Shown in pieces: positions 1 to 14,152 of a stretch of 64,000 bases of DNA; the stretch's first letter is position 1, and each line of letters begins with the position of its first letter. The stretch comes from Bacteriovoracaceae bacterium. Lineage in GTDB: Bacteria; Bdellovibrionota; Bacteriovoracia; Bacteriovoracales; Bacteriovoracaceae. The translations under genes and the position numbers were made by a program. The notes beneath the pieces are model-generated. The model was not told the DNA's origin. It searched no databases and was given only the letters and a program-made list of their open reading frames with translations. The DNA is taken from contig JADHTQ010000022.1 in the NCBI GenBank assembly GCA_016784965.1, forward strand, positions 1 to 64,000, written 5' to 3'.

Positions 1-87
1 ATTGCCATACTAATCCTCTTTCTTGCCATTTTCCCTCCATTTGGAGGGATCTTACATGTCAAAGAGGCCTTAAGTCTAAATCATGAC

Positions 88-133
88 TGGCTGCATTTGG
101 AGTTTATTACGGGTGGCTGCATTAGAGGTTTAT
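88..133. repeat. 20-bp imperfect direct repeat, two copies
   Basis: Copies at 88-107 and 114-133 both begin TGGCTGCATT and end GTTTAT, differing only in the middle; the period is 26 bp. Two copies are too few for a CRISPR array and no cas gene is near. The function is unknown. Confidence 0.5.
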
Positions 134-246
134 CGGTCACTGAAATTTCAGATCTAAGAATTTTATATCATCCCTGTTTCGTCTTGGTGCCAAGATAGGT
201 ACCGGTGCTTTTTTTCCAGTTGCAAGGGTATATTCTGGGAACATCT

Positions 247-432
247 CTAGAACATTTTTACTGGCTGCTTCTTGTCAACTAGGTCACTTGAGCCCGCTTG
301 TTGAGTAGACTCAATCCGTCTCATTATAAACTCAACAACATGATCAAACTCGTCGTCATCAGGCAGTCTTTTACCTTTACCAATTTCATGCCACTTTTGT
401 AGCAGGTAAGAATATCCTGTGAACCCTAGTTT
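247..432 (-). pseudogene. Possible gene fragment without a start codon
   Basis: On the minus strand a frame stays open from a stop at 433-435 to a TAG at 247-249. It would encode about 61 residues with natural-looking composition (for example YLLQKWHEIGKGKRLPDDDE, then EFDHVVEFIMRRIES). No ATG, GTG or TTG with a ribosome binding site precedes it, so it looks like the C-terminal remnant of a larger gene. I do not recognise the family. A chance open frame is the alternative. Confidence 0.3.
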
Positions 433-533
433 TTAAATATATCCCTAATGGCATTTATTGAAACCCCGATAAAGTTAATATATTTAGCATTCATAACACT
501 TGCTCAAGAACTCAGAGTAAAAGGACGGAACCC

Positions 534-1457
534 ATGGCACCACGCATCTTTTTATTGATGTCACTAATCATCTTTCCCTTAAACACCTATGCGTTAGATA
601 AAGTACAAATGAAAAACGGGGATGTTTATCGCGGAGAAATCATAGAGCAAAGGTTTGGTGAGTTTGTACAGATAAGGTTCCAAAATGGTAATGAGAAAAG
701 ATTACCAGAAAAGGATATGGAGTCAATTAAAAAGGAAAAGACAAGAGAAATTGCAAGCGAGGGCCAGGAAGAAGAGGTGGGAGATGCTGCGGAGTTAGCA
801 GAACAGATTAATAATATAGTTGATCAAGAAGAAGAGGTGAGAGATGTATCCGGCAATAGTACTAAGTCAAATACGTTGCTATTTGGGGGGGCATTTCCTT
901 TGGGAGATTTTGGTTCAAATCAAGGAGGGACGGACTCCAAAGATGGCTTTGCGAAACAAGGTTTTTCTCTTATTTATGAAGGTCACTACAATTTTTCCTC
1001 AGGCTTGAGTTGGGTGGTTAGTGGTTCTATTTCAATTAATGAGTTGGATACAGATACAATGGAAAATCTTTCTGACCTAGATGTAGATATCAGTTCTGGC
1101 AGTTATGTGAGTAATTGGACTCTGGCTGGTATCCGCGCAGAAAATAGATTAACACCATCTTTAAGTTTATATGGACAGGTACAAGCAGGGTTATTAATAT
1201 CATTTTTCCCTAACATTGCTCTTTCTTTGAAGACATCCCCCTATACCTCAGTACTCCAAAAAACAGAGACAAGCTTTGCTCTTGGCTATGGTTTGGGTGG
1301 AGGGATTGTAATTAACAAGCTTATTATTGGGATAAGGCTTTATGGTAGTAGTCCTGACTATACACAAACTGCAGAAAGTGGTTCAATTACTGGAACACCT
1401 GTGACAGTGAATCTGCCGATGACCATTTTGCAGCTAATGGTTGGATTTAGTTTTTAA
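534..1457 (+). CDS. Exported outer-membrane beta-barrel-like protein
   Basis: The 307-residue product starts with a signal peptide (hydrophobic residues 4-20, cleavage likely after NTYA). Residues about 22-65 form a charged module (VQMKNGDVYRGEI...) of the kind seen in front of some outer-membrane proteins, followed by an acidic Glu/Gln-rich linker to about residue 105. The C-terminal 200 residues alternate polar and hydrophobic positions, are rich in Gly and aromatics, and end in phenylalanine (MVGFSF), the usual signature for BAM-dependent barrel insertion. No enzyme motif is seen. The exact family is not recognised. It lies left of the possible left boundary of the mobile region, so it may be resident chromosome. 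Confidence 0.75.
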   Translation: MAPRIFLLMSLIIFPLNTYALDKVQMKNGDVYRGEIIEQRFGEFVQIRFQNGNEKRLPEKDMESIKKEKTREIASEGQEEEVGDAAELAEQINNIVDQEEEVRDVSGNSTKSNTLLFGGAFPLGDFGSNQGGTDSKDGFAKQGFSLIYEGHYNFSSGLSWVVSGSISINELDTDTMENLSDLDVDISSGSYVSNWTLAGIRAENRLTPSLSLYGQVQAGLLISFFPNIALSLKTSPYTSVLQKTETSFALGYGLGGGIVINKLIIGIRLYGSSPDYTQTAESGSITGTPVTVNLPMTILQLMVGFSF

Positions 1458-1542
1458 TAAATATTTGCCTTATGCAAAATGTGACTAAGGTATACTGGTC
1501 GTACTTTTCAGATGATAAAGGCGGTTCACTCTTATGGTCTTC

Positions 1543-1577
1543 CCCCTTGAAAACCTATCGAAACATTATGGTGGAGG
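1543..1577 (+). repeat. Imperfect copy of the integrase/tRNA junction sequence
   Basis: These 35 bases align without gaps to 14051-14085, the stretch between integrase and tRNA-Ala, at 26 of 35 positions by hand count. The shared blocks are CCTTGAAA and ATGGTGGAGG at identical spacing; the second covers the last 9 nt of the tRNA 3' end. It may be a decayed attachment site at the left end of a roughly 12.5-kb element, or a chance match. Confidence 0.3.
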
Positions 1578-1700
1578 TGGTGAAGTGAATGTAAGCTATT
1601 TAAATAATAAGGGCATAGTAGTTCAAACACTACAAAAAACTACAACTATCATTTTAGCTTGATAATAGTATATAAAATTGCAAAATAATTGCATATCAAA

Positions 1701-2351
1701 TTAATTATTAACTTTACTACCATTTTTCAAAAGAATCTTATCACCGGTAGATCCTTTTTCTCCAATAGATCCTTTTTTTCCAGCAGGTCCATCAATTCCA
1801 TTAATCTCAACTATAAACTTAGGTAAACTGTCATCCTTGCTCCCACTTGTATAAGAATAAATACCCCCTAGAATAAAACATGCAACAGCAAGCACAGAGG
1901 CTGCACCTTCAACCCATCCTCCAAGACAAATGTGCCGAGAATACTTATGTGACGATGTAGGCTTTACAAAAGTATTCTCTGTTCTTGCTTTATCGAGCCA
2001 GCATTTCAATGCAGCAACATCCAAATACCGCATAAAAAATGATACCGTGATAGCAATAAAGCTAAAAACATAGACTAGCAGAAGTATAGAGCTAGTTGTC
2101 TTAAACATTTTTGAATTCACGAGAGTCCATGTAGCACCAACTAAAACGATTAGGTACGTAAAGTTGTTGGCTCTTATTTTATACTCAAGATTCCAGATCA
2201 TATCTCTAAACTTAATTCGGTCCTCAATTTTTTCCTTAAATGAGCTAAGCTGAGTTAATTTCTCAAATTTTTCTTCAAGCTCAACAATTCTTTCTTTGAA
2301 ATCATTATCTGGGCTTGGTTGTTGAGGTTTTTCACCTTGATTGCCACTCAT
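1701..2351 (-). CDS. Membrane protein with coiled coil and collagen-like tail
   Basis: This 216-residue protein is not a recognised family. Residues 15-45 are heptad-like and highly charged (probable coiled coil). Three hydrophobic segments follow, at about 63-80, 85-107 and 148-168. The C-terminal tail contains a short Gly-X-Y run (GPAGKKGSIGEKGSTGDK, about residues 187-204), a collagen-like pattern that in bacteria can drive trimerisation. A basic AAGGG element lies 6 nt before the ATG. The start is 28 bp downstream of a 51-aa lysine-rich protein (2380-2535), so the two probably share one transcript from a promoter at 2581-2609. Function is unknown; a membrane-anchored oligomer is the most that can be inferred. 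Confidence 0.7.
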   Translation of the reverse strand: MSGNQGEKPQQPSPDNDFKERIVELEEKFEKLTQLSSFKEKIEDRIKFRDMIWNLEYKIRANNFTYLIVLVGATWTLVNSKMFKTTSSILLLVYVFSFIAITVSFFMRYLDVAALKCWLDKARTENTFVKPTSSHKYSRHICLGGWVEGAASVLAVACFILGGIYSYTSGSKDDSLPKFIVEINGIDGPAGKKGSIGEKGSTGDKILLKNGSKVNN

Positions 2352-2379
2352 ATAAAACCCTTATAGCAAGCTGTATTTG

Positions 2380-2535
2380 TTATTTTTTCTTTGCTACTTT
2401 CTTCTTTGCTACTTTCTTCTTTGCTACTTTCCTCTTTATAACTTTTTTTCTTGCAGTAACGGTTCGTCTCCTGACTGACTTTTTATGACCAAGACTATCT
2501 CTACCTTCATCATCATTACTATTGTCATCTGACAT
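2380..2535 (-). CDS. 51-aa histone-H1-like lysine-rich protein
   Basis: A short gene with ATG at 2533-2535 and TAA at 2380-2382. The product has an acidic N-terminus (MSDDNSNDDEGRD) and a strongly basic C-terminal half built from three KKVAK-type repeats, encoded by a 15-bp DNA repeat at 2383-2427. Such KKVAKK tails are typical of histone-H1-like bacterial nucleoid proteins and AlgP-type tails that bind DNA non-specifically. A clear Shine-Dalgarno (AAGGTGGGAGC) precedes the ATG and a good promoter lies at 2581-2609. It is followed 28 bp later by the coiled-coil membrane protein. The frame is supported by the ribosome binding site, the promoter and the repeat period being a multiple of three. 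Confidence 0.7.
   Translation of the reverse strand: MSDDNSNDDEGRDSLGHKKSVRRRTVTARKKVIKRKVAKKKVAKKKVAKKK
2383..2427. repeat. Three tandem 15-bp units coding KKVAK
   Basis: The plus-strand unit TTTCTTCTTTGCTAC occurs exactly at 2398-2412 and 2413-2427, with one mismatch at 2383-2397. Being 15 bp, gain or loss of a unit would change the length of the basic tail without a frameshift. Confidence 0.85.
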
Positions 2536-2580
2536 GCTCCCACCTTTTTTTAATAACTAGTTTTATTACTATCGGAATTC

Positions 2581-2609
2581 AAAATATTTTCTTTACCTGA
2601 TAAAGTCAA
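2581..2609 (-). promoter_or_regulatory. Sigma-70-like promoter for the H1-like gene
   Basis: On the minus strand TTGACT (2609-2604), a 17-nt spacer and TATTTT (2586-2581) stand about 46 nt upstream of the ATG at 2535. Five of six -35 bases and four of six -10 bases fit consensus. Confidence 0.5.
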
Positions 2610-2778
2610 AACTTTCTTGCTGTAGCTTACCTATCATGCTTGACTCTTCGATAAAAGTTTCAAAACAGCTATTTATGATAGATCAAGTGAGTTTGAAAAA
2701 GTGAGGTAGTGCCCAATATTTTGATATAATGTTTTTATCATTTTAACATTTTTTTTGCCAAGACCTCTTCTTAATCAG

Positions 2779-2973
2779 CTAAAGAAGAAGTTTTTGAAGA
2801 CTTAATAACTTAATGTTATTATTAACGACTAAATAAAACACTATTGATACAGACATTGCCAATGACAAATAAAACGCTAGGTCGCTTTTCAACACTCTTC
2901 TTATAAAAATTGCAATAAAAAGAATAAAAGAAGAGCAAATCATCAATTCTCCTGTTGCCGAAATCAAAAGCAT
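2779..2973 (-). CDS. Small two-helix membrane protein
   Basis: A 64-residue protein made of two hydrophobic segments (about residues 10-25 and 33-50) joined by a short basic loop (RRVLKSD). Its ATG shares one base with the stop codon of the upstream gene (TAATG), so translation is probably coupled and the two products made in fixed ratio. No family is recognised. The coupling to a PUA-like protein with its own hydrophobic helix suggests a membrane partner or effector, which is inference. Confidence 0.55.
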   Translation of the reverse strand: MLLISATGELMICSSFILFIAIFIRRVLKSDLAFYLSLAMSVSIVFYLVVNNNIKLLSLQKLLL

Positions 2974-3983
2974 TATATTTTCCTCTCCACCTTATTTACA
3001 GCATCAATAATTCTTACAATATCTTTTGAATTTTTAATATCCATATTCCTTATTTTTAATAATAACTCAGTTTTTATCTCTCTATCCACTGAATTATTCA
3101 TAAAATTATCTACTGTTTTAATAATCCCTGGAACACTTAGCTTCATTTTAGCACCTGCCACTGAGAATTCAAAACCTCCCCCTCCGATAGAGGTCAAAAT
3201 GAGCCCCACAATGAGTAAGGTAGACGCTACTTTGGCTGTAAGGACAAGCTTTCCGGGTGAATTTAAGTTTATCGACAATTCAATATCATTATCAACTTCT
3301 AGAGTTAAGTCTGCAGATATTTTATTTGCTATTTCAAAAATCTGATTAAAAGCAGAGAAAAGCTCTGGAGCCTTAACTCTTTCTGCGTCAATGTCTAACA
3401 CCAAATTATAATCATTTTCATATCTATAAAAGTCAAATAGCAAGCTATTGATATGTGTTGCATATTTCGATGCATCTACAATTGTCTGGTGTGAAAAAAA
3501 CAAATTATACAAAGCAGGATTTATTTTATACTTTGGAACAGTTTTCAACCATTTTACGTCACAACATTTGCTATAATCAGCTACAAGTACATTTTCTCCT
3601 TTTCTATTTTTTTTGAAAACTCTCTCTGATTTGATGCTATCACTAGCTACTCGACCAATTGCCAAACTTGATGTCTGCGCTGAAGGAGAAATTACAAGAT
3701 CACCTTTTTTCATTTCAAGATAGAATCGCTTCATCTGATTAGCAATATACCCAGGAACCTTGTGCTGGGGCAGTTTTTTCTCAATAAAACCCATTAATTT
3801 TTTTTGCTCATTTACAACTTTTGAAAGAGAGGAATGATCCAATTCGGGATAACCGATTGCAACTAATTTTTGATCCAAAAATGATCTAAATAACCTTCCT
3901 CCATTAGTTCTAATCAACCAATATGCCTGATTTGAAATAATTTTATTTTGTTTTGGCAAAAACTGATCTATCGAGAGGGCCAT
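2973..3983 (-). CDS. PUA-like (EVE/Mrr-N type) domain protein with hydrophobic helix
   Basis: This 336-residue protein has an N-terminal half (about 20-190) with a pattern I associate with the PUA-like domain found in COG4127/Mrr-type restriction proteins: AYWLIRTNGG, VAIGYPELD, MKRFYLEMKKGDLVISPS, LAIGRV, then VKWLKTVPK. Related EVE/YTH folds bind modified bases. No nuclease motif is visible. The C-terminal half holds one strongly hydrophobic segment at about 251-270 ending in GGGG, then a charged helical tail. A SD-like AAAAGG lies 7 nt before the ATG. It overlaps the downstream 64-aa membrane protein by one base. Plausibly a sensor plus membrane element of a defence cassette; the fold is a family-level guess and the role inferred. 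Confidence 0.6.
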   Translation of the reverse strand: MALSIDQFLPKQNKIISNQAYWLIRTNGGRLFRSFLDQKLVAIGYPELDHSSLSKVVNEQKKLMGFIEKKLPQHKVPGYIANQMKRFYLEMKKGDLVISPSAQTSSLAIGRVASDSIKSERVFKKNRKGENVLVADYSKCCDVKWLKTVPKYKINPALYNLFFSHQTIVDASKYATHINSLLFDFYRYENDYNLVLDIDAERVKAPELFSAFNQIFEIANKISADLTLEVDNDIELSINLNSPGKLVLTAKVASTLLIVGLILTSIGGGGFEFSVAGAKMKLSVPGIIKTVDNFMNNSVDREIKTELLLKIRNMDIKNSKDIVRIIDAVNKVERKI

Positions 3984-4153
3984 TTATCAACCTTTTGATA
4001 TTGAGAATAAGAAACATCCTTTTTCGCATATTTGAAGGATATTTTCAAGTCATATCACCGAGGTGGTACATCTGCTCTATCTAATTAATATTGTGGTAAC
4101 TTAATTGCGAATAAACTACAACATATGACATACATGGATAGGTTGATATTATT

Positions 4154-4303
4154 TCAAACTGTTACGTGGAGTGAGTAAATTAACAAGAGGCTCCAACCTC
4201 CCATGGCCATAACTTTGATCGGAGGTATTCCCTTACTCAACATCAGCGTTGCCCAAGTTGCTCTAAGGTCGTGGGGCCTAATCTTCGAAAGCCCTAGCCT
4301 TTT
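4154..4303 (-). pseudogene. Tyrosine recombinase remnant, frameshifted and truncated
   Basis: The minus strand reads RLGLSKIRPHDLRATWATL followed by MLSKGIPPIKVMAMGGW. This is the conserved box II of a phage-type integrase: HxLRxT with the GGW of the sixth catalytic position. After GGW the frame runs into unrelated residues and a stop at 4154-4156, so the catalytic Tyr is missing. Upstream, a stop at 4304-4306 interrupts the frame, while another frame continues the homology as TYFIEKARAF (about 4285-4320), showing a frameshift. It differs from the intact integrase at 12917, so it marks an older element. Nothing else is seen between 3984 and 4380. Confidence 0.75.
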
Positions 4304-4380
4304 CTATGAAGTATGTAAGCAAAATAATCAAGTACGCAAAGAGTAAATGTACCAAACTCCACAAAGAACACTAATTAGTA

Positions 4381-4410
4381 TTGGAATAAAATAATCAAAT
4401 CTAGTATTAT
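4381..4410 (+). promoter_or_regulatory. Sigma-70-like promoter for the lipoprotein genes
   Basis: TTGGAA (4381-4386), an 18-nt spacer and TATTAT (4405-4410) stand 76 nt before the preferred start at 4487. Confidence 0.45.
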
Positions 4411-4486
4411 TTAGAAATCAAGATTACCGATGACAGTTTTACTCAAGAGGTCTCTCTTCCCTTTCAAAAAAATAGGAGAAATGAAC

Positions 4487-5074
4487 ATGAATTCTTGCTT
4501 ATACCTCACAAATTTCATATTGGCCTTAATTCTAAGCGTATTAACAGGATGTGCATCGAATTATGTTCTCGTTATAGAAAAAGAGATGCATCAGTGTACA
4601 CAAAAAGAATCCGCTAAACCCAAAGATATTAAACACCCTAAAACATTTAATACTTGGAAAAAGTGCTATGATTCAGCAGAACGCAGGAAGCTGAACAAAT
4701 TAATAGAGGATAGACTTGTAAAAGAATTGGGTCTAAAGAAAAAGACAAATTATCTATCAATATATAGTTTAATAGAGGAAGCACAGAAACAAAGGGCCAG
4801 AATTAAGCGTGGAACAGAGTTGATTTCCAAATACCCAATGTTTAAAAAATTCAAAAAAGATATTAAGAAAGGATATGTTTATATCGGAATGCCTTATCAA
4901 GTGCTTGAGGCAATTACAGGGTACTGCAGAGAGAATCGTACCCAAACAGCGAAAATGATTAGCGTTCAGTATGTTTGTAGAGGTAAATATGGATCAAAAT
5001 ACTATTACGTTGATCAAGTTTATGACCCTAAGATGGATATGTTTACAGGCAATGTAAGGGTAATCCAAGATTAA
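4487..5074 (+). CDS. BamE/SmpA-like small lipoprotein
   Basis: The preferred start is the ATG at 4487, seven nt after AGGAGA; an in-frame ATG at 4430 would add 19 residues but lacks a ribosome binding site. The 195-residue product begins with a lipoprotein signal peptide with lipobox LTGC (Cys at about residue 22). The middle is basic and helical. The C-terminal part (YIGMPYQVLEAITGYC, later VYDPKMDMFTGN) resembles the short alpha/beta domain of SmpA/BamE-like lipoproteins, where GM(P/S)xxxVxxxxG starts the domain. It is followed after 47 bp by another lipoprotein gene, probably in one operon. The molecular role is unknown. Confidence 0.6.
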   Translation: MNSCLYLTNFILALILSVLTGCASNYVLVIEKEMHQCTQKESAKPKDIKHPKTFNTWKKCYDSAERRKLNKLIEDRLVKELGLKKKTNYLSIYSLIEEAQKQRARIKRGTELISKYPMFKKFKKDIKKGYVYIGMPYQVLEAITGYCRENRTQTAKMISVQYVCRGKYGSKYYYVDQVYDPKMDMFTGNVRVIQD

Positions 5075-5121
5075 GTTCCATAGAGCTAATGTGATAAAGT
5101 TTGTTTACAGGCGGAGGTGCT

Positions 5122-6648
5122 ATGTTTTTTAGAGAAGTAATTAAAGTTGCTATATTATTGTGTTTAATATCAAGTTGTTATCCAAATAAAGATAGCCCGG
5201 AAAATTCTCGAAAAGCCTTGGGAGAAATGAATATTCCCTTCAATGAAGACGAGTTTATAAAAGCAGTAAAAAACAATGATTACGTTGTGGTAAAGTATTT
5301 TCTAAACTCTGGAATGAACCCGAATCAACATACAACAATAAAAGGTACGTTCCCTTGGGTGTCTACCTTGCCTATCTTGGCCTTAGCTGTAGATAATAAT
5401 GATATTAAAATGCTCAATTTATTATTAAAGCATGGCGCAGATATAGATTCTACTCCAGATAAAAGTCAGTCTGCATCGGATACAACCACTACAAGTGACA
5501 CCCCAGCTGCCCTTACACTTTCTGGTTTGATGTGGGCCGTTATGACAGACAACCCAAAAATGGTTAGGGCCTTATTGGATAAAGGTGCTAGTGCAGATAT
5601 TAAGTTGAGAGAACTTCTTTCTGCAGGCATCTTAGAAATTGCGTTAACTCCTTTCTTAAAAGGTAAACAAGTTAATCAGTCAATGATAAGAAATTTAATT
5701 TCACATGGTGCAGATGTTAACTATTCAGGCTTTAAGCCTATGACTCTTTTAAGCCAAGTGATTCATAACTCTCCATCTCTAGCATCAGTCAAAACTTTAG
5801 TTAATTGTGGTGCAATTCTTTACCCTGAAGTTCAAAATTCTGCTATTAAACTTGTAAAGGACGAAATAAGAAAGCTGACAATTGAAGGTGGAAACAATTC
5901 AAAAATGACAAATGACAAATTAATTGAACTCAAGACAATATATGACTATCTGAATCCTATAGTTTTGAATTCAGATAGGCCTTTTGTTGAAAATATTGAT
6001 AAAAATTGCCAGAACAAAAAACCCAAAACGGTATCACCTTCTAAATCAGAAGAGTGTGATACATTGCCAATTATTTTGCACAGAGAATTAAAGAATTTCC
6101 CTTGGGAGAATGTATATTATGAGATTGGAAGTGAAAAATCACCTCGCTATGTGATACTGATCTCTTTAGACCGTAAAGGGCCAAAAACTAATGTCAAAGA
6201 TAGAAAAAATATGTACTCAAGTACACCATGGATGGTGCTGAAGCAATCAAACAGTTCTTCTAATAAATACTGTATAATGAATAAGGGAACTCACTCTATG
6301 CAAGAAGAGCTAGATGCAAACTATAGAAAAAAATACCCTATTTTTAAAAAAGAAGGAACATGCTTGAATCCACTTGACAGGAAAAACCGTGTTTTTATAC
6401 CTATGACAATGTCAGAGAAAAAGGAAGACCTCATAAAGAGGGCGCTTAAGAAAAAGCCTGCATTCTATTACTTGTTTGGGTCTAACAAAGAGGTATATCG
6501 GCTATTCTTACTTTCACATGGAGAGGCTTATTTAACAGAACAGAGTAAGGGGAAATTTCCAAGTTCTAGTGAAACTTTGCCTAACACTGGAAATATATGC
6601 ACACTTGTTGATGGAAAGTTGCATTCACGTCATGTGTACTACAGATAA
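5122..6648 (+). CDS. Ankyrin-repeat lipoprotein
   Basis: ATG at 5122 follows GGAGGTGC and is preferred over an upstream ATG-like start at 5101. The 508-residue product has a lipobox (LISSC, Cys about residue 19), so it should be membrane-anchored outside the cytoplasm. Residues about 45-240 contain four to five ankyrin-like units, e.g. LLNLLLKHGADIDS, MVRALLDKGASADI and LISHGADVNYS. The C-terminal 270 residues form a second region of unknown family with several Cys and many Lys. Ankyrin repeats mediate protein-protein contacts. The gene lies between another lipoprotein and an exported nuclease in the accessory region. No catalytic motif is seen. Confidence 0.7.
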   Translation: MFFREVIKVAILLCLISSCYPNKDSPENSRKALGEMNIPFNEDEFIKAVKNNDYVVVKYFLNSGMNPNQHTTIKGTFPWVSTLPILALAVDNNDIKMLNLLLKHGADIDSTPDKSQSASDTTTTSDTPAALTLSGLMWAVMTDNPKMVRALLDKGASADIKLRELLSAGILEIALTPFLKGKQVNQSMIRNLISHGADVNYSGFKPMTLLSQVIHNSPSLASVKTLVNCGAILYPEVQNSAIKLVKDEIRKLTIEGGNNSKMTNDKLIELKTIYDYLNPIVLNSDRPFVENIDKNCQNKKPKTVSPSKSEECDTLPIILHRELKNFPWENVYYEIGSEKSPRYVILISLDRKGPKTNVKDRKNMYSSTPWMVLKQSNSSSNKYCIMNKGTHSMQEELDANYRKKYPIFKKEGTCLNPLDRKNRVFIPMTMSEKKEDLIKRALKKKPAFYYLFGSNKEVYRLFLLSHGEAYLTEQSKGKFPSSSETLPNTGNICTLVDGKLHSRHVYYR

Positions 6649-6806
6649 AATGGATTCTTTCAAACTTAATTATGTGTTGAAACTAAAGCTTTTATAAAGG
6701 CCTTACAAATTTGTATAGAAAGTCCCTTACTTGTAAGAAGAACGACACCATGTCAGATGGAGAGGTGATGATACATAGATACATCAGCAATATAGGAGAA
6801 TTCAAT

Positions 6807-7679
6807 TTGAACTACAGTATAGCAGTATTCGTATTATTTATATGTTTAATGTCAGTCGTTGATAAATCAGCTGCCCATAGCGGACGAACCGCAGCAAGGG
6901 ATGGATGTCACTTTTGCAGAACAAATTGTAAAGCATACGGATATACTGAAAATACAAGGCACTCGCATACACGAGGTAAAAGGTGTCTTGACAGCAACGA
7001 CCCCTTGCACAACCCCAAGAAATCCTTGACGCAGAAAGCGGCTAAAAGAACGAAAGCAGGACAAGGTGTAATGACCAATACTAGTTCCTATAATAAGTTT
7101 ACCTATAACGACTCAACTCGAAACAAGCTGTTACCACTTTACTTAAAGAATCACGGTGCGACATTTTACTGCAGTTGCAAATTTAATAAACATAAAGATG
7201 TTGACCATAAGTCTTGTGGCTTTAGTTATTTTAAAAAAGATAACGGCACAAAATTTATCCAGTGGGAGCATATTGTTCCTCAGTCAGTTATCAAAAGGTA
7301 TTTTGAAAGTAGACCACCCCTAGGAGACATGCATAACATCGTTCCTGCAGTTGGCAAGATCAACAATATACGAAGCAACTATCCTTTTCGAGTAATTGAA
7401 GGTGAAACAAGAAGGTTTGGTAAGTGTGATTTTGAGACAAAGAGTGGTGTTGCTGAAGCTAAAGAGAGCATTCGTGGAAACATTGCCAGAATCTACTTTT
7501 ATATGGAGTCAAAATATAACATCAAGATCGATGATGTCAGTAGGAAACTATTTATCAAGTGGGACAAACTTGATCCACCAGATAAGTGGGAGTGTGACCG
7601 AAATATCTTGATTGAAAAAATTCAGGGTAACAGTAATACATTTGTTACAAATGGATGTTTAGCAAGATGGAGTAGTTAG
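6807..7679 (+). CDS. Exported endonuclease I (EndA/NucM family)
   Basis: I choose the TTG at 6807 because AGGAGA lies 8 nt upstream and the reading begins at once with a signal peptide (NYSIAVFVLFICLMSVVDKSAA); longer starts place a polar stretch in front. The mature protein begins with a His/Cys-rich module (HSGRTAARDGCHFC... RHSHTRG) like the small metal-binding YHYH-type domains of secreted nucleases. The catalytic half shows the endonuclease I signature: WEHIVPQS, then GDMHNIVPAVGKINNIRSN and NYPF, with the His of WEHIVP as expected general base and the Asn as Mg ligand. Such enzymes cleave DNA or RNA non-specifically in periplasm or medium. Confidence 0.85.
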   Translation: MNYSIAVFVLFICLMSVVDKSAAHSGRTAARDGCHFCRTNCKAYGYTENTRHSHTRGKRCLDSNDPLHNPKKSLTQKAAKRTKAGQGVMTNTSSYNKFTYNDSTRNKLLPLYLKNHGATFYCSCKFNKHKDVDHKSCGFSYFKKDNGTKFIQWEHIVPQSVIKRYFESRPPLGDMHNIVPAVGKINNIRSNYPFRVIEGETRRFGKCDFETKSGVAEAKESIRGNIARIYFYMESKYNIKIDDVSRKLFIKWDKLDPPDKWECDRNILIEKIQGNSNTFVTNGCLARWSS

Positions 7680-7701
7680 ACCAAGTGATAAAAGTACTCA
7701 T

Positions 7702-7869
7702 TCACTTTAATTCCAAAATAATCTCCTGACCGTCCCTATGCCTCTGTAAAAACATTTTAAGCTTCCCAATAGGAAATACTAAAACATTTTTAGGAATATC
7801 GATCTCCTCATTAATTAAATCTTCAACAAACTGTTCAATTTCTTCAATTTTCTCTGATGAAATATCCAC
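7702..7869 (-). CDS. 55-aa acidic hypothetical protein, GTG start
   Basis: On the minus strand a GTG at 7867-7869 follows GAGGAGGT by about 6 nt, one of the best ribosome binding sites in the region, and is read for 55 codons to a TGA at 7702-7704. The product (MDISSEKIEEIEQFVEDLIN then EEIDIPKNVLVFPIGKLKMF, ending LELK) has an acidic helical first half and a more basic hydrophobic second half. No family is recognised. It is convergent with the nuclease gene, 22 bp apart. Confidence 0.55.
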   Translation of the reverse strand: MDISSEKIEEIEQFVEDLINEEIDIPKNVLVFPIGKLKMFLQRHRDGQEIILELK

Positions 7870-8259
7870 TGTGACCTCCTCAGTTGATGGTAGATCGCAT
7901 GTATTATTCTCTATGAGAAGTAAATATGCAGGAACTGAAAGATAATTTTCAATAATGAATTAACTGATCGGAATATTTATCAAAACCTAAATTGTTTATG
8001 CTGGGCAATTTAAGTCAGCGACAACATGCCAGTTGTTAAATAGAAGGATTAATTAACCTGAGGTTTTATCAGGTTTTATAAGAAACAAAGAATGGGGTTT
8101 GTTATCGTAAAATTATTCTAGGAGTAAAATCTAAAACTCCTTCTAAAGCATAGATTAGGTGTAAATGGTCGGGCCATTGTTGTTTAACTTAAAACTATAC
8201 TTAAACAATAATCAGATAGAAAAGAAGTCAATACAATATCGAACACTTCTAATTAAAGG
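7870..8259. other. Intergenic stretch with one hairpin
   Basis: No gene is seen. The only structure noticed is a hairpin at 8055-8075 (AACCTGA, 7-nt loop, TCAGGTT) followed on the plus strand by TTTATA, and a short direct repeat of AGGTTTTAT overlapping it. It could be a weak terminator or a binding site. Confidence 0.35.
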
Positions 8260-8685
8260 TTAGGAATCCTTAGCACTCTTTTTAATAATCCTTCTAGCTA
8301 TTTTTAAATATTGCTCCTCACTTAACTTTGATGAGGATGTTTCATTTTTAATTGAAATATCATTTTTTTGTGTAAACATTCCAAGGTATTTACCCTGTAA
8401 CTCAATGGCTCTTAAGGCAACAGATAAGTTGCCACATTTAAGTGCATCAGAGCGTAGTTGTTCTAAACTTCCCAAAATTTTTTCAACTGTCAGATTTGCC
8501 TCTACGGCCCTTTCTTTTGCATAACTTTTGATCATCTTTGCAATTTCTGGTTTCCTCAAGTTCTCTTGACCTATTGAATATGCTGTTTTTTGTGAGTAAC
8601 CAGCGTCCCTTGCAGCCCTTGTCGCATTAAAGTCTTTAAGATATTCATTTACGAAAAAAGCCTGTTTTCTAGTTAGCTGTTTCAT
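8260..8685 (-). CDS. Small terminase subunit-like protein
   Basis: The start at 8685 gives 141 residues beginning MKQLTRKQAFFVNEYLKD followed by FNATRAARDAGYSQKTAY. This LTxKQxxFvxeYlxdxNaTxAaxxAGYS pattern is the N-terminal DNA-binding helix-turn-helix of the Terminase_2 small-subunit family, which recognises pac or cos sites for phage packaging. Residues about 75-115 form a helical oligomerisation region. Family length (140-180) fits. A longer frame to 8766 would overlap the upstream gene and add non-family residues. No large terminase, portal or capsid gene is in the window, as in phage satellites that carry their own TerS to redirect packaging. A promoter is visible at 8692-8719. Confidence 0.8.
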   Translation of the reverse strand: MKQLTRKQAFFVNEYLKDFNATRAARDAGYSQKTAYSIGQENLRKPEIAKMIKSYAKERAVEANLTVEKILGSLEQLRSDALKCGNLSVALRAIELQGKYLGMFTQKNDISIKNETSSSKLSEEQYLKIARRIIKKSAKDS

Positions 8686-8691
8686 AGTTAA

Positions 8692-8719
8692 ATTATAGCA
8701 TGTCGTACTTAAATTGTAA
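8692..8719 (-). promoter_or_regulatory. Strong promoter directly before terminase-like gene (possible leaderless mRNA)
   Basis: Minus strand: TTACAA (8719-8714), a 16-nt spacer, and extended -10 TGCTATAAT with TATAAT at 8697-8692. Only six nt separate TATAAT from the ATG at 8685, so transcription would start about at the ATG. No Shine-Dalgarno lies in between. The element sits in the 38-bp gap after the upstream stop codon. Confidence 0.55.
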
Positions 8720-8723
8720 GATA

Positions 8724-9818
8724 CTAGATATTTAATATAAAGTGATCTGTACCCGGTGGTTTGCAACGCTTAGCTCTCTTAAATTGCGCCAATGTCTTAA
8801 GTTTAGTTTTCACATCTTTATTCTGCCTCTTATAAGCCTTCCACTGCTTCTCCTCTTTCTTGTCCTTAGACATGTTACTGTACGAAAGCAAAGCACGACA
8901 ACTTGCTGAGCCACAGTGCTCTTCACTTTTACCGAATTTACCTGCTAAGAAATATCTTGGACAACAACGACACTGCCTAACAATATAACCGGACTTCGCA
9001 ACACTACCCTTAATTTTCCAAATTGTGTAAAGAAACAGGGTATTTATATTACTCGTGCCGCAAATCTCTTTGTTGCTAAACGAATCTACAGCAGAATTAA
9101 GATTTTCAAATTCCATTGGTCTTAAAATGCGCTCTACTTTTAACATTACAAGGTAGTCAGAGGCTTTGGAGTACGCCATCGCGTCAGCCCAACCACTAAA
9201 ACAATCATTAACTATTTCTCTAAACTCATAACGGTACCTTGCTACTTCAGACATAAGTCCTTGCTTTGAGTGTAACAGGTCATGAACATGGCCAGAAAGA
9301 TAGAATTTCATCATTCTATAATAGTGACTTCGATAATGTTCCTTCATGTTCTCCTTATCTATAAGACCATCTATATCATAACCTCGATATATACAATCGA
9401 TAAATGGACTGTTAGCCCTTACATCGCAACCCTTAGGGAACAAGGATAAGTTTTCAAACCTGTGGTTTCTAAAAGCTATATGCCGGTTACAAATTATAAA
9501 TATAAACATATAAAAAATAAATTTCTCTTCTTCATATTTGACCTTCGCAGAACACATTGAAGATAGAAAAGTTAAAACATAAAAATCAAAATTCTCATTT
9601 TCACAAACTAAAAGTAGACATTCGAAGAGTTCATTAGGCAGTATTTTAAAAAAATCACTAGTATCATCCCCCTTAATGTTATCTCGCTTCATCTGAACTT
9701 TCTTAATTCTTGCAATATATTTTTTTTGTATTTTTGCTTGAAAGGTAGGTGGTAACACCTCTACCAGTGATTGAAATCTTTCAAGTAATGTATTTATAGA
9801 TTCTCTTTGCATAACCAT
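8724..9818 (-). CDS. Uncharacterised protein with C-terminal zinc knuckle
   Basis: A 364-residue protein without recognised family. The first 200 residues are helical, with a hydrophobic aromatic patch at about 98-115 (EKFIFYMFIFIICNRH). The C-terminal third has a Cys cluster (RQCRCCPRYFLAGKF, then EEHCGSASCRA) resembling the CxxC...CxxxC treble-clef finger of CGNR-type DNA-binding proteins, followed by a basic tail (KKEEKQWKAYKRQNKD). It is likely a nucleic-acid-binding protein. It is divergent from the excisionase gene across a 169-bp control region and sits just upstream of the small terminase. In a satellite this position often holds a regulator or packaging-interference gene; that role is inferred. 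ATG at 9812 is an alternative start. Confidence 0.6.
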   Translation of the reverse strand: MVMQRESINTLLERFQSLVEVLPPTFQAKIQKKYIARIKKVQMKRDNIKGDDTSDFFKILPNELFECLLLVCENENFDFYVLTFLSSMCSAKVKYEEEKFIFYMFIFIICNRHIAFRNHRFENLSLFPKGCDVRANSPFIDCIYRGYDIDGLIDKENMKEHYRSHYYRMMKFYLSGHVHDLLHSKQGLMSEVARYRYEFREIVNDCFSGWADAMAYSKASDYLVMLKVERILRPMEFENLNSAVDSFSNKEICGTSNINTLFLYTIWKIKGSVAKSGYIVRQCRCCPRYFLAGKFGKSEEHCGSASCRALLSYSNMSKDKKEEKQWKAYKRQNKDVKTKLKTLAQFKRAKRCKPPGTDHFILNI

Positions 9819-9829
9819 GCTTTAATCTC

Positions 9830-9958
9830 ACACAAATGTTACACGTTTGCAAGAAGACTCGTTAGATCAAAAAACATCAGTGTTATTAGGTAATTACAGC
9901 AGACAACAGTAATTCAATAAAGTAAGTTGTTAATAATGGAGTATGAATTTGTGTAACA
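9830..9958. promoter_or_regulatory. Divergent control region with inverted operator-like words
   Basis: Between the two divergent genes, ACACAAAT (9830-9837) and TGTTACAC (9837-9844) recur as reverse complements ATTTGTGT (9947-9954) and GTGTAACA (9951-9958), one set next to each gene. This looks like a shared regulator-binding layout controlling both directions; the regulator is not identified. Confidence 0.4.
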
Positions 9959-9987
9959 ATATTTAACAATTAATAAGGAGCAGGGCT

Positions 9988-10185
9988 ATGCAAATGAAGG
10001 AAATGAACACACCAGAACTTTTAAATATTGATCAAGCTGCAGCTTTTCTAAATGTTAAGCTTTCATGGTTAAGATCAATTGTCTTCAAAAAGAAAATTCC
10101 CGTTATTCGGCTTGGCCGATTACTTCGCTTCAATAAAAAAGAATTAATTCAATGGCTTGAAAATAATAACCAGAACGCTATATAG
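9988..10185 (+). CDS. Excisionase/AlpA-type helix-turn-helix protein
   Basis: The 65-residue product reads LLNIDQAAAFLNVKLSWLRS then IPVIRLGRLLRFNKKELIQW, the MerR-like winged HTH (HTH_17/excisionase family): a helix-turn-helix recognising the target and a wing carrying the conserved G-R-RF. Such proteins act as recombination directionality factors or as AlpA-like regulators of integrase genes. Ribosome binding site AAGGAGCAGGGCT lies just before the ATG. It is 104 bp upstream of the replication protein gene and in the same direction as the integrase, so it probably belongs to their operon. Confidence 0.8.
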   Translation: MQMKEMNTPELLNIDQAAAFLNVKLSWLRSIVFKKKIPVIRLGRLLRFNKKELIQWLENNNQNAI

Positions 10186-10289
10186 CTTTAAATGCATCGA
10201 GAAAGAAGTTAATGATTTTACATATGATCTATATATATAGCTAATTTCTCACATAACTAAGCATTTTAAATTAACAATCGGAGGGAAAT

Positions 10290-12743
10290 ATGTCTGATAT
10301 AGACTTGTTGGGTCGCATTGCGTCTCATACTCAAGCAAAAAGAACGAAAAACGGATTTATAGGACATTGTCCATGTCACCATGACTCTAATCCATCATTA
10401 TCAATAACAGCTACCAACAATAAAACAAATCCTCTTATCTACTGTCATGCAGGGTGTTCCCAAGAAGACCTCATTTCTTACTTCAGAAGACATAGTCTAT
10501 GGTTAAGCAAGGAAACAAGTTCTGTCAGTTTTGACAGTACAAACAATAGAGACATTAAAAAAAAGGATACTCTAATGATAAGTAAAATCATCAAAGAATG
10601 TAATCAATTATCACAACCAAACCCAGCTACATTGTATATTAAGAACAGAGGACTGTTGCCTGTAGAGAATCCATCTTTATTATATCACCCAAAACTTATT
10701 TATAATGAGTGCGGAAAAACAGCAACACATCCTGCCCTTGTTGCAAAAATAACTGACCTTAAGGGGACTACTCTTGGAATACAACGTATCTACCTAACAA
10801 ATAATGGAGATAAGGCCCTACTTAGTAATCCAAAGAAAGTACTCGGAGACTTGAAGGGCAATGCAATTATGCTAGATGCCCCTAATGATGTTTTACATAT
10901 TGCAGAAGGATTAGAAACGGCATTGGCGGTACGAGAGGCTTTGAAAGAATCAACTTGGTCAGTAGTAAATGCAAATAATATTTTAACTGTAAACTTACCT
11001 GCAAATATTAAAGAGCTTCATATATGGGCCGACAAAGATAAAAGTAAAACCGGAGAGATAAAGGCCCTTGAGGCTGCTAAGACTATAAACAACAGTGGAG
11101 TAATAGTCTATGTCCATGTACCTCCACTGGAAGTGTGTGAAAGCTCCAAAGGGGTTGACTGGCTTGATGTGCTAAACCAACCAAATGGAAAAGCACTAAT
11201 TCTCGAAGGCAGAAATAACGACCCTGTGTACCCATGGGAAAGCCCCACACTAATAACAAAGGTATCCAAAAAAGCTCCGCCTTTGCCCCCTAACATTATC
11301 CCCCCCACTGTAAGAGATTTTGTAATAGATGTTTCTGAGAGGCTTCAGGTTCCTTCAGAATTTGTTGCCATTCCTTTAATCGTATGTAGTTCAATTTTAA
11401 TTGGAAATAAATTGGCCATCTACCCAAAAAAATTCGACTCTTGGAGTGTAACTCCAAACTTATGGGGAGCGATTATTGCTAAGCCTAGCACAAAAAAAAC
11501 TCCTGCTCAAAAAAGCATTATAAGTCTACTTAATAAACTATCTACTCAGGAGAGGCAGAGAGTACAACAACACAACGAGAAGAACAAAGTAAAAATTATA
11601 TCTATAAAAGAACAAATCGAAGGAATCAAAAGCAAACTCAAGGCACGTAAGAACATAGATGAAAATGAAAACGAACTAACTCTACTAATTGCAGAACTTG
11701 AAAAGACCGAAACTTCTGAAAAGAGGTATTATATCAATGATGCAACGGTTGAAATGTTAACAGAATTATTAAAAGTTAACTCCAATGGTTTACTAGTATT
11801 TCGAGACGAGCTAATGGGTTTTTTAAAAAGCTTAGATAAACCTAACCGATGTACAGATCGTGCTTTTTTTTTAGAATCATGGGATGGTAGTTTACCTTTC
11901 CAGACAGGTCGAATCTCCAGAGGTGAAGTATATATAGAATCACTATGCTTATCGATTCTAGGAGGAATTCAGCCTTCAAAATTAAAACCATATATTAATG
12001 ACGCTGTTAATGGACTACTAGGAGACGATGGGTTCATTCAAAGGTTTCAACTGATTGTTTACCCTGAAATTGATCATAAGTATGAATACGTAGATCGTAA
12101 ACCAAACACAAAGGCAAAGGAAGAAGTTCAGAAGTTTCTCAAAGGCCTTGAAGAACTTAACCTTGATCACTTTGATATTGATGGCAATGGACAACACTAT
12201 GTTAAATTTTCAGAAAACGCCCAAAAGGTATTGAGTAAATGGCTAATTGACCATGAAACAAGACTACGGTCTGGAAAAATTGAATGCCATGCCCTTGAAT
12301 TACATCTGGCAAAATATGCATCTTTAATGCCAAGCCTTGCTTTAATTTTTCACCTCATGGACTACGTTGCTCAGAAAACTCGTGATACAAGTGTCTCACA
12401 AGAGGCAACCGCAAAAGCAATATTGTGGTGTCAGTTTCTAGAGGGCCATGCAGACAAGATATATAGCCTTGCTGTAACTCAGGAAACTAACTCCGCAGTG
12501 GCAATAGCTCAAAAAATTAAGAGCAACGAGATTGCTAATGGAACTTCAGCTAGAGAAATCCTTCGACATGGTTGGTCAAAGCTTAAAAGACCAAAAGACA
12601 TTCACGATGGTTTAATTATTTTGGAACTTAATAATTGGATAATGCTTGAAGTAGATAAACCAGTAACTGGCCGACCCAGCAGTCCCACAATCAAGATCAA
12701 CCCTATTCTATTTAAAAACAATGAGTATTTTAAAACATTATAA
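10290..12743 (+). CDS. Primase-like/DUF3987 replication protein
   Basis: An 817-residue protein of mobile elements. Residues about 1-65 form a CHC2-type zinc-binding domain (GHCPCHHDSNPSL ... LIYCHAGCSQ), which in primases contacts template DNA. Residues about 150-290 form a Toprim domain (LHIAEGLETALAVREA with the catalytic Glu, LHIWADKDKS with the metal-binding acidic pair). From about 345 to the end it matches DUF3987 helicase-like proteins (SEFVAIPLIVCSSILIGN, VFRDELMGFLKSLD, ILGGIQPSKLKPYI), including a coiled-coil insertion at about 420-480. A GGAGGG lies 6 nt before the ATG. It probably primes and opens replication of the integrated element after excision. Confidence 0.85.
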   Translation: MSDIDLLGRIASHTQAKRTKNGFIGHCPCHHDSNPSLSITATNNKTNPLIYCHAGCSQEDLISYFRRHSLWLSKETSSVSFDSTNNRDIKKKDTLMISKIIKECNQLSQPNPATLYIKNRGLLPVENPSLLYHPKLIYNECGKTATHPALVAKITDLKGTTLGIQRIYLTNNGDKALLSNPKKVLGDLKGNAIMLDAPNDVLHIAEGLETALAVREALKESTWSVVNANNILTVNLPANIKELHIWADKDKSKTGEIKALEAAKTINNSGVIVYVHVPPLEVCESSKGVDWLDVLNQPNGKALILEGRNNDPVYPWESPTLITKVSKKAPPLPPNIIPPTVRDFVIDVSERLQVPSEFVAIPLIVCSSILIGNKLAIYPKKFDSWSVTPNLWGAIIAKPSTKKTPAQKSIISLLNKLSTQERQRVQQHNEKNKVKIISIKEQIEGIKSKLKARKNIDENENELTLLIAELEKTETSEKRYYINDATVEMLTELLKVNSNGLLVFRDELMGFLKSLDKPNRCTDRAFFLESWDGSLPFQTGRISRGEVYIESLCLSILGGIQPSKLKPYINDAVNGLLGDDGFIQRFQLIVYPEIDHKYEYVDRKPNTKAKEEVQKFLKGLEELNLDHFDIDGNGQHYVKFSENAQKVLSKWLIDHETRLRSGKIECHALELHLAKYASLMPSLALIFHLMDYVAQKTRDTSVSQEATAKAILWCQFLEGHADKIYSLAVTQETNSAVAIAQKIKSNEIANGTSAREILRHGWSKLKRPKDIHDGLIILELNNWIMLEVDKPVTGRPSSPTIKINPILFKNNEYFKTL

Positions 12744-12916
12744 AAAAGTAACTGACAGAACTGACAAAAGTATTGGAATAAGCATGAATAGATTATATCA
12801 AAAAACACTTCACCTTAACAAAACACAACCGTTAGTATATAACCTTTCTAAATCGCTCTTTAACATTAAAATACTGGCAGCAATCATGGTCTTAGGACTT
12901 CTTTACAGGAGATCCT

Positions 12917-14041
12917 ATGGAAACAATTAGACGAGACAATAAAGTAAAATACCGTGAAATGATCCGAGTAGACGGAAGGCCCATTAAGTCACCATGCTTT
13001 GGCCGCAAGACAGATGCGAAGAACTGGAAAAGAAGGATGCTAAATGAAAGAGAGCAGTCCTCTGCTTCAGGCAGTAACTTCAATCCAAACTTAACATTTG
13101 GTACGTTTTCTAGAACATGGCTTGAAGAGGTTGTGAAGATTAGAAACTCACAAAGAACTTATGAGTGTTACAATAGCGACCTTAAAAATCACCTATTGCC
13201 CACATTGGAATTGACTCTTATAACGAGTATTAGCCCAACCAGTGCGCATAAACTGATAAGTGCTCTTAAGGCCAAAAACCTCACTCACCGGACTATAAAC
13301 AAAGTTATTGGCCTTTTAAAAACCATTTTGAACTTTGCGGTTAAATCAGATTACATTCCCAAAAACAGGCTCTTTGCTTTTCCCGAATTGAAAGAGCCAC
13401 CAAAGGCAGATGTATTTTGGGAAAAAACAGAAATATCTCAATTTTTCAGAGCAAACATAAACGACAACCTTTTTCCGATGTATCTCACAGCAATTTATAC
13501 AGGTATGAGGTTAGGGGAAATTTTAGGCCTTTGCTGGGATAGAGTAAATTTCACAACAAAGCAGATTGAGGTAACTAGAATTATGACGCGAAGTGGTCTA
13601 CAAGAAACGACCAAGACTCACAAAAAAAGAGTTATTTCAATGCATCCAGATGTTCAAGCAGCATTCGTAAAGTTAATACAGGCGCAACGTTCAAAAACCT
13701 TTGTTTTTACGAAGGAGAATGGAAGACCCCTAGACTACAACCACGTATCTCAAAGGGAGTTTAAAAAAGCGCAAAAAAGAGCAGGTTTCAGCAAGGTTAT
13801 ACGCTTTCACGACTTGAGGCATACATTTGCATCACAATTTATGATGGAAGTTGGAGACATCTATTCACTTCAAAAGATTCTAGGGCATCGCTCCATTGAT
13901 CAAACTAACCGCTATGCACATTTGAGTACAAAGTTCTTATCGGATGCGATAAACAAGCTATCATTTGACAGTGGCGTGGAAAGTGAACCATATATGAACC
14001 ACGCCTTAAAAATTTCTTCAAATATTGTAAGTATTTCGTAA
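12917..14041 (+). CDS. int: Site-specific tyrosine recombinase (integrase)
   Basis: This 374-residue integrase has an N-terminal arm-binding region (KYREMIRVDGRPIKSPCFGR), a SAM-like core-binding domain (about 55-145) and a catalytic domain. The catalytic residues visible are Arg in YTGMRLGEILGL (about 199), a Lys in the beta hairpin around TKTHKKRV, His-x-x-Arg in HDLRHTFASQF (about 299-302), His in ILGHRSIDQ and the nucleophile Tyr in NRYAHLS. Start ATG at 12917 follows AGGAGATCCT. It ends 35 bp before the tRNA-Ala 3' end, the usual position of an integrase that uses a tRNA gene as attachment site. It is intact. Confidence 0.93.
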   Translation: METIRRDNKVKYREMIRVDGRPIKSPCFGRKTDAKNWKRRMLNEREQSSASGSNFNPNLTFGTFSRTWLEEVVKIRNSQRTYECYNSDLKNHLLPTLELTLITSISPTSAHKLISALKAKNLTHRTINKVIGLLKTILNFAVKSDYIPKNRLFAFPELKEPPKADVFWEKTEISQFFRANINDNLFPMYLTAIYTGMRLGEILGLCWDRVNFTTKQIEVTRIMTRSGLQETTKTHKKRVISMHPDVQAAFVKLIQAQRSKTFVFTKENGRPLDYNHVSQREFKKAQKRAGFSKVIRFHDLRHTFASQFMMEVGDIYSLQKILGHRSIDQTNRYAHLSTKFLSDAINKLSFDSGVESEPYMNHALKISSNIVSIS

Positions 14042-14050
14042 GGATATTAG

Positions 14051-14085
14051 TACCTTGAAACCCCATTAAAAATTAATGGTGGAGG
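14051..14085 (+). repeat. Candidate attachment-site junction overlapping the tRNA-Ala 3' end
   Basis: This 35-bp stretch links integrase and tRNA. It contains a perfect 7-bp inverted repeat (CCATTAA, loop AAA, TTAATGG at 14063-14079) that runs into the tRNA CCA end, and resembles 1543-1577. The exact crossover sequence cannot be fixed without an empty site for comparison. Confidence 0.4.
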
Positions 14086-14152
14086 ATACAAGGATCGAAC
14101 TTGCGACCTCTACCGTGCCACGGTAGCGCTCTCCCAACTGAGCTAATCCCCC
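14077..14152 (-). tRNA. tRNA-Ala, anticodon GGC
   Basis: The minus strand folds into a full cloverleaf of 76 nt: acceptor GGGGGAT paired with ATCCTCC (one G-U), D-arm GCTC...GAGC, anticodon stem CTACC/GGTAG with loop GTGGCAC (anticodon GGC, codon GCC), T-arm GCAAG-TTCGATC-CTTGT, discriminator A and encoded CCA. The 3' end faces the integrase. It remains intact after integration, as expected when the element restores the tRNA tail. Confidence 0.95.

Follow-up and report, generated by a model that had tools for sequence, protein, structure and literature searches.

Phage-inducible chromosomal minimalist islands (PICMIs) are found in Vibrionaceae and are searched for with a model that combines an integrase (PF00589), an AlpA protein (PF05930 or PF12728) and a DUF3987 or DUF5906 primase (PMC10803314). 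They depend on a virulent helper phage, and their DNA is packaged as a concatemer. Experiments with PICMI115 showed that AlpA is the switch for excision and that the primase acts in replication (PMC10803314). In SaPIs, it is established that packaging is directed by TerS, the small terminase subunit (PMC6092414).

We analyzed a window of 64,000 nucleotides (positions 1 to 64,000 of contig JADHTQ010000022.1, assembly GCA_016784965.1) from a Bacteriovoracaceae bacterium of the phylum Bdellovibrionota. At 8260-14041 it holds an island of five genes, confirmed to be real and intact, beside a tRNA-Ala gene. We conclude, with a probability of roughly three in four, that the island is a phage satellite integrated at tRNA-Ala; from its gene content, excision, packaging and dependence on a helper phage are predicted. 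We favor this reading because the island's TerS scores far over the family threshold, neither phrog_2 nor phrog_38 finds a large terminase (TerL) in the element, and the genome's one phrog_2 TerL is on another contig, beside a different TerS.

Genes of the island

Three genes of the island are on the plus strand and run toward the tRNA. The outermost, at 12917-14041, encodes a tyrosine integrase (PF00589, E 5e-29) in which all catalytic motifs are present: R (TGMRLGE), HxxR (HDLRH), H (LGHRS) and Y (NRYAH). It ends 36 bp from the 3' end of tRNA-Ala(GGC), which ARAGORN places at 14077-14152 on the minus strand and which would be the integration site; the neighbors of the island are this tRNA and moeA. 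At 9988-10185 is an excisionase/AlpA-type HTH_17 protein (PF12728, E 1.4e-10; TIGR01764 over cut-off). An earlier, sequence-only reading of this DNA had described an intact recombinase at the tRNA 3' end and an excisionase-type HTH protein, and both descriptions hold. Between these two genes lies the gene for a primase-helicase replication protein (Rep, 10290-12743), which had been called a CHC2/Toprim/DUF3987 protein. The DUF3987 (E 2.5e-75) and Toprim_3 parts stand, together with a match to DUF7146, but the CHC2 match scores 21.3 bits, short of the 24.9 that Pfam requires, and this part is best termed CHC2-like.

The other two genes are divergent from these three, on the minus strand. TerS, at 8260-8685, matches PF03592 (Terminase_2) with 83.1 bits (E 3.9e-23) against a curated cut-off of 26.1 bits, so the small terminase predicted from the sequence passes the proposed profile check by a wide margin. 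It also matches phrog_51, 'terminase small subunit', with E 1e-26, and a profile of its family matches the PDB entry 3zqp, also a 'terminase small subunit', with E 2e-31 over residues 24-153. Its nearest relatives on IMG/VR phage contigs have up to about 45-54% identity in their best segments.

The minus-strand gene that precedes terS (8724-9818) encodes a 364-amino acid orphan with zinc-finger-like cysteines in its C-terminal part. The description of this protein as a zinc-knuckle protein in a divergent block is right in that the gene is intact and its C-terminal part is cysteine-rich, but none of its family matches reaches the cut-off, DUF6076 (E 0.014) included. No relative was found among 59 genomes, phages, plasmids and IMG/VR at the sensitivities used, and a single-sequence fold prediction was uninformative. 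From its co-directional position with terS, we can only guess that it is a regulator or a packaging partner. The two blocks are separated by an intergenic region, 9819-9987, that the gene coordinates mark as a divergent control region; it contains short inverted repeats only. Scans for promoters and terminators gave no higher yield than shuffled sequence.

The sequence-only reading had seen no capsid, portal or large terminase; in line with this, PHROG recognized no structural gene among the scanned genes of the element, and phrog_2 and phrog_38 detected no TerL there. Among those between 1701 and 14041, PHROG matches to head, tail and lysis families were absent, the exceptions being TerS itself and a sub-threshold-like match of an ankyrin protein to phrog_1064 (E 0.005).

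Ends and possible cargo

An element that targets a tRNA gene leaves a duplicate of the tRNA 3' end on its far side. Exact-seed scans and ungapped scans of 18-76 bp found no such copy, and a candidate attL emerged only from a mismatch-tolerant search across the tRNA end. This candidate, at 1545-1577, agrees in 26 of 33 bases with the candidate attR (14053-14085, which runs into the 3' end of tRNA-Ala), and the final 9 nt of the tRNA, TGGTGGAGG, are part of the match. The second-best place in the window reaches 20/33, and a further 1.98 Mb of sequence from other loci holds no place that reaches 23/33, counts that apply to a 33-mer picked after the alignment had been seen. Of 1000 dinucleotide shuffles of positions 1-8260, 6 attained the score of the match when it was anchored at the tRNA end (p about 0.006); without the anchor, 100 attained it somewhere. 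The candidate attL is intergenic, just beyond an outer-membrane-like gene (534-1457), and the contig extends only a short way to its left.

The ends had been placed at 8055 and 14085. The right end fits, but the left end is probably near 1568: we consider it likely that the candidate attL, an imperfect repeat, is the left end of the element. If so, the element is 12.5 kb and includes cargo genes; without the candidate attL, the core is 5.8 kb. Neither codon usage nor GC3 separates the element from its host or marks the ends, and GC drops left of about 14 kb, not sharply.

The proposed mapping of boundaries against related genomes was carried out on 20 fetched tRNA loci of relatives. No empty site appeared among them, and none contained homologues of the left flanking genes. 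A moeA homologue occurs close to tRNA-Ala in only one of the 20, L209 (6349-7950). There it is beside tRNA-Ala(GGC) as well, but the arrangement differs, the tRNA being in the opposite orientation relative to moeA from that in the window. Two other genomes of the family have integrase-like ORFs near tRNA-Ala(GGC) (L207 6330-7592 and L196 2759-3208), which may mark this tRNA as a hotspot for insertions.

Five genes between 1701 and 7679 are possible cargo. On the minus strand are a 216-amino acid protein with no Pfam family over cut-off and no PHROG match (1701-2351) and a 336-amino acid protein (2973-3983) that is associated with phages and satellites (phrog_10226, E 1.4e-53). The latter is a candidate defense gene: its N-terminal part matches PADLOC PDC-S02 (E 1e-14), and its relatives, at about 23-27% identity, are in Streptococcus satellite phages Javan325, 339 and 462 and also in prophages. 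On the plus strand, sequence scans indicate a lipoprotein-like protein (4430-5074), an ankyrin-repeat, lipoprotein-like protein (5101-6648; Ank E 2e-13) and an endonuclease I homologue whose N-terminus resembles a signal peptide (6711-7679; PF04231, E 3e-32). IMG/VR contained no relatives of the candidate defense protein, of Rep alone, of the zinc-finger-like protein or of the TerS from locus L039 (below).

Stand-alone TerS genes in Bdellovibrionota

We surveyed 291 Bdellovibrionota genomes for strong Terminase_2 genes (E <= 5e-11) and found them in 12. One of these, G019, has a prophage (contig C53; L193 9703-14015) with TerS, a phrog_38 TerL and a portal. The remaining 11 have stand-alone TerS genes, and in 10 of them terS and a tyrosine integrase gene are no more than 5 kb apart (the exception is G202). 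Because a query with phrog_2 missed the TerL of G019, phrog_38 was run as a second query on the TerS genomes. With these two queries, which may miss other types of TerL, 10 of the 11 stand-alone genomes have no TerL anywhere in the genome; the exception is the window genome, where TerL is on another contig. Weaker Terminase_2 matches (E 1e-8 to 1e-3), nearly all of them confined to N-terminal profile positions, were left out of these counts; they are probably HTH proteins of other kinds.

Four of the stand-alone loci are bounded by tRNA repeats and span 5.9-10.3 kb: L042 (tRNA-Met repeats, 48/49 matching; 5.9 kb), L041 (tRNA-Pro, 19/19; 6.9 kb), L039 (tRNA-Pro, 24/25; 8.3 kb) and L040 (tRNA-Glu, 54/54; 10.3 kb). 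The genes scanned in these elements (some small ones were left out) encode a replication initiator, nucleases and regulators, and in L039 also an ATPase close to defense families; there are no capsid, portal or tail genes among them. In L041, terS is transcribed divergently from the side with HTH_17 and the integrase, as it is in the window. In another genome (G159), one contig (C72) carries two int/AlpA elements, one with TerS and a dCMP-deaminase-like gene (L191 6960-12473) and the other with a DUF3987 Rep (L028 4624-8446).

The window genome has two Terminase_2 matches, and both are inside clusters of integrase, HTH_17 and DUF3987 genes; the presence of TerS in such a cluster is more than chance. 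The second cluster is on the 7.5-kb contig C124 (L026), where genes for an integrase, HTH_17 and DUF3987 are joined by one for a TerS-like protein. This protein resembles the window TerS weakly, straddles the Pfam cut-off of 26.1 bits (25.5 in the genome scan, 26.5 as a whole ORF) and matches phrog_51 with E 9e-10. Near the start of the contig (L026 46-131) is a perfect 25-bp inverted repeat, GGGGTCAGGTCTAACATTCTTACAT, of REP-like appearance.

A search for a helper phage in the genome, also proposed from the sequence, led to C60 (L067 1-16092), a phage contig of about 16 kb that has the genome's one phrog_2 TerL, a portal (phrog_156) and a TerS of another family (phrog_1482). It also encodes a repeat-rich protein of 266 amino acids. 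A phrog_38 TerL and a PF04860 portal were not found in the window genome. The TerL of C60 is of the type that matches the island's TerS, as shown by 53 free-phage contigs that have a homologous TerS with a large gene just downstream. In 40 of the 53, the large gene belongs to one family, which matches the C60 TerL (E 6e-56), and in four it belongs to a family that matches the TerL of G019; thus, in at least 44 of the 53 it is a member of a TerL family. None of the satellite loci has a member of either family. Going by this pairing in free phages, this type of TerS normally works with a C60-type TerL; the island keeps it without one.

It is possible that C60 is the helper phage of the island, and also possible that it is a co-binned phage. 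The element and C60 have no DNA in common above background, and therefore nothing shows that C60 is the helper. The ends of the window contig, C60 and C124 have no overlap of 12 or more bases. A prophage that continues past the end of the window contig is possible, but one that joins the island with C60 would require two unrelated TerS genes.

Alternative readings and known satellites

The island might be the remains of a prophage that lost its structural block, with TerS as a relic. The resemblance of its TerS to those of genuine phages would fit such an origin, as would its Rep, since DUF3987 proteins are common to many kinds of element. But all five genes are full length, and ten Bdellovibrionota genomes share the pairing of an integrase with a lone TerS, four of them in compact elements between tRNA repeats, a pattern that random decay would not produce. 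We consider a decayed prophage improbable, and slightly less credit is due to an integrative element, plasmid-like or a defense island, that moves without phage particles and uses the TerS-like protein as a DNA-binding regulator or replication factor. Such an element would account for possible cargo that resembles defense proteins and secreted enzymes. It would also agree with the fact that none of 80 GTDB loci with relatives of Rep has a TerS of the window type in the fetched flanks; because relatives of the two proteins do not co-occur in these loci, Rep alone is not a marker. What speaks against particle-free movement is that TerS matches the packaging family along its length, beyond the HTH (phrog_51 positions 86-238, and the structure 3zqp), and that no relaxase family is over cut-off in the scanned element genes, where TraI appears only below cut-off, in the primase-like part of Rep.

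It is very improbable that the locus is two unrelated things, an element of integrase, HTH_17 and Rep at the tRNA next to an older chromosomal pair of terS and zinc-finger genes with other genes. One could point to the imperfect repeat at 1545, to the orphan status of the zinc-finger-like protein and to the fact that no att copy was found near 8 kb. Yet C124 repeats the gene combination within the same genome, and terS is divergent in the tRNA-bounded L041 as well. A satellite that carries its own TerS is the best reading of the island and is largely supported.

If the island is such a satellite, its gene content suggests the following cycle. A helper phage would switch the element on, and the HTH_17 protein and integrase would cut it out at its att site in tRNA-Ala. 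Replication of the excised element would then be the task of the Toprim-DUF3987 protein. The element's TerS would bind satellite DNA and pass it to the TerL of the helper, whose particles would carry it into a new cell, where the integrase would re-insert it at tRNA-Ala. Every step, like the identity of the helper, is inferred from the genes.

Bdellovibrionota is a phylum that holds many predatory bacteria, and from its membership in the phylum only, we presume that the host is predatory. A literature search of limited scope found no paper that describes phage satellites in Bdellovibrionota. The island is not alone: about ten more Bdellovibrionota genomes hold similar lone-TerS loci, and this recurrence suggests a type of parasite that has drawn little notice and that uses the particles of other phages. 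We tentatively speculate, and give it less than even odds, that Bdellovibrionota are home to a varied set of small satellites of their own, which are integrated at tRNA genes, are built on a lone TerS and an integrase, and may move defense genes and secreted nucleases from host to host. These satellites might live off virulent phages of bacteria that are often predators, because the carrier genomes are mostly without a recognized prophage terminase. If true, the range of satellites would widen to take in a phylum noted for its predators, and compact tRNA elements that combine an integrase with a lone TerS would be a gene signature that current models of PICI, P4, PLE and PICMI may miss. It could then be tested which phages package the island, and whether satellites affect the control of a predator by phages.

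The island was at first labeled PICI-like. The satellite part of this label is retained, but likeness to PICI or SaPI is not the best description, as no repressor is recognized and the triple of core families matches PICMI. As in PICIs and SaPIs, there are an integrase, genes for excision and replication, an own TerS and no structural genes seen (PMC6092414), as well as a divergent control region. PICIs are about 12-15 kb; with the candidate attL as its true end, the island would be within this range (12.5 kb), whereas the core alone is 5.8 kb. PICIs also have att sites of their own that prophages never use, and in L207 the ORF that adjoins tRNA-Ala is integrase-like. Of the PICI modules, integrase and Rep are present and the regulator only as HTH_17. 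In contrast to PICIs, where the integrase is beside a divergent Stl/Rpr repressor, the integrase of the island is downstream of Rep in the same direction, and no Stl/Rpr-type repressor, helper-interference gene or capsid-size (capsid-morphogenesis) gene was recognized among the element genes. The one gene compared with the Javan series of Streptococcus satellite phages, the candidate cargo gene 2973-3983, has relatives at 24-27% identity in Javan325, 339 and 462; the host phyla are unrelated.

By gene families, the PICMI core is closer to the island than SaPI is. The island has few genes, no structural genes were found in it, and it matches the PICMI core-family model with PF00589, PF12728 and PF13148 (PMC10803314). 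However, integration next to fis is the stated hallmark of PICMIs, whereas the island is at tRNA-Ala. Complete PICMIs are reported only in Vibrio genomes, and never two in one genome (PMC10803314), whereas the island is in Bdellovibrionota and a second set of genes is on C124. The island also has a TerS, and the word 'terminase' is absent from the main text of the PICMI paper (PMC10803314). With its tRNA site and its TerS, the island is not a PICMI by definition. Because it fits neither PICMI, by its site, nor PICI, by its gene order and repressor, we propose that the island is probably a new variant of phage satellite.
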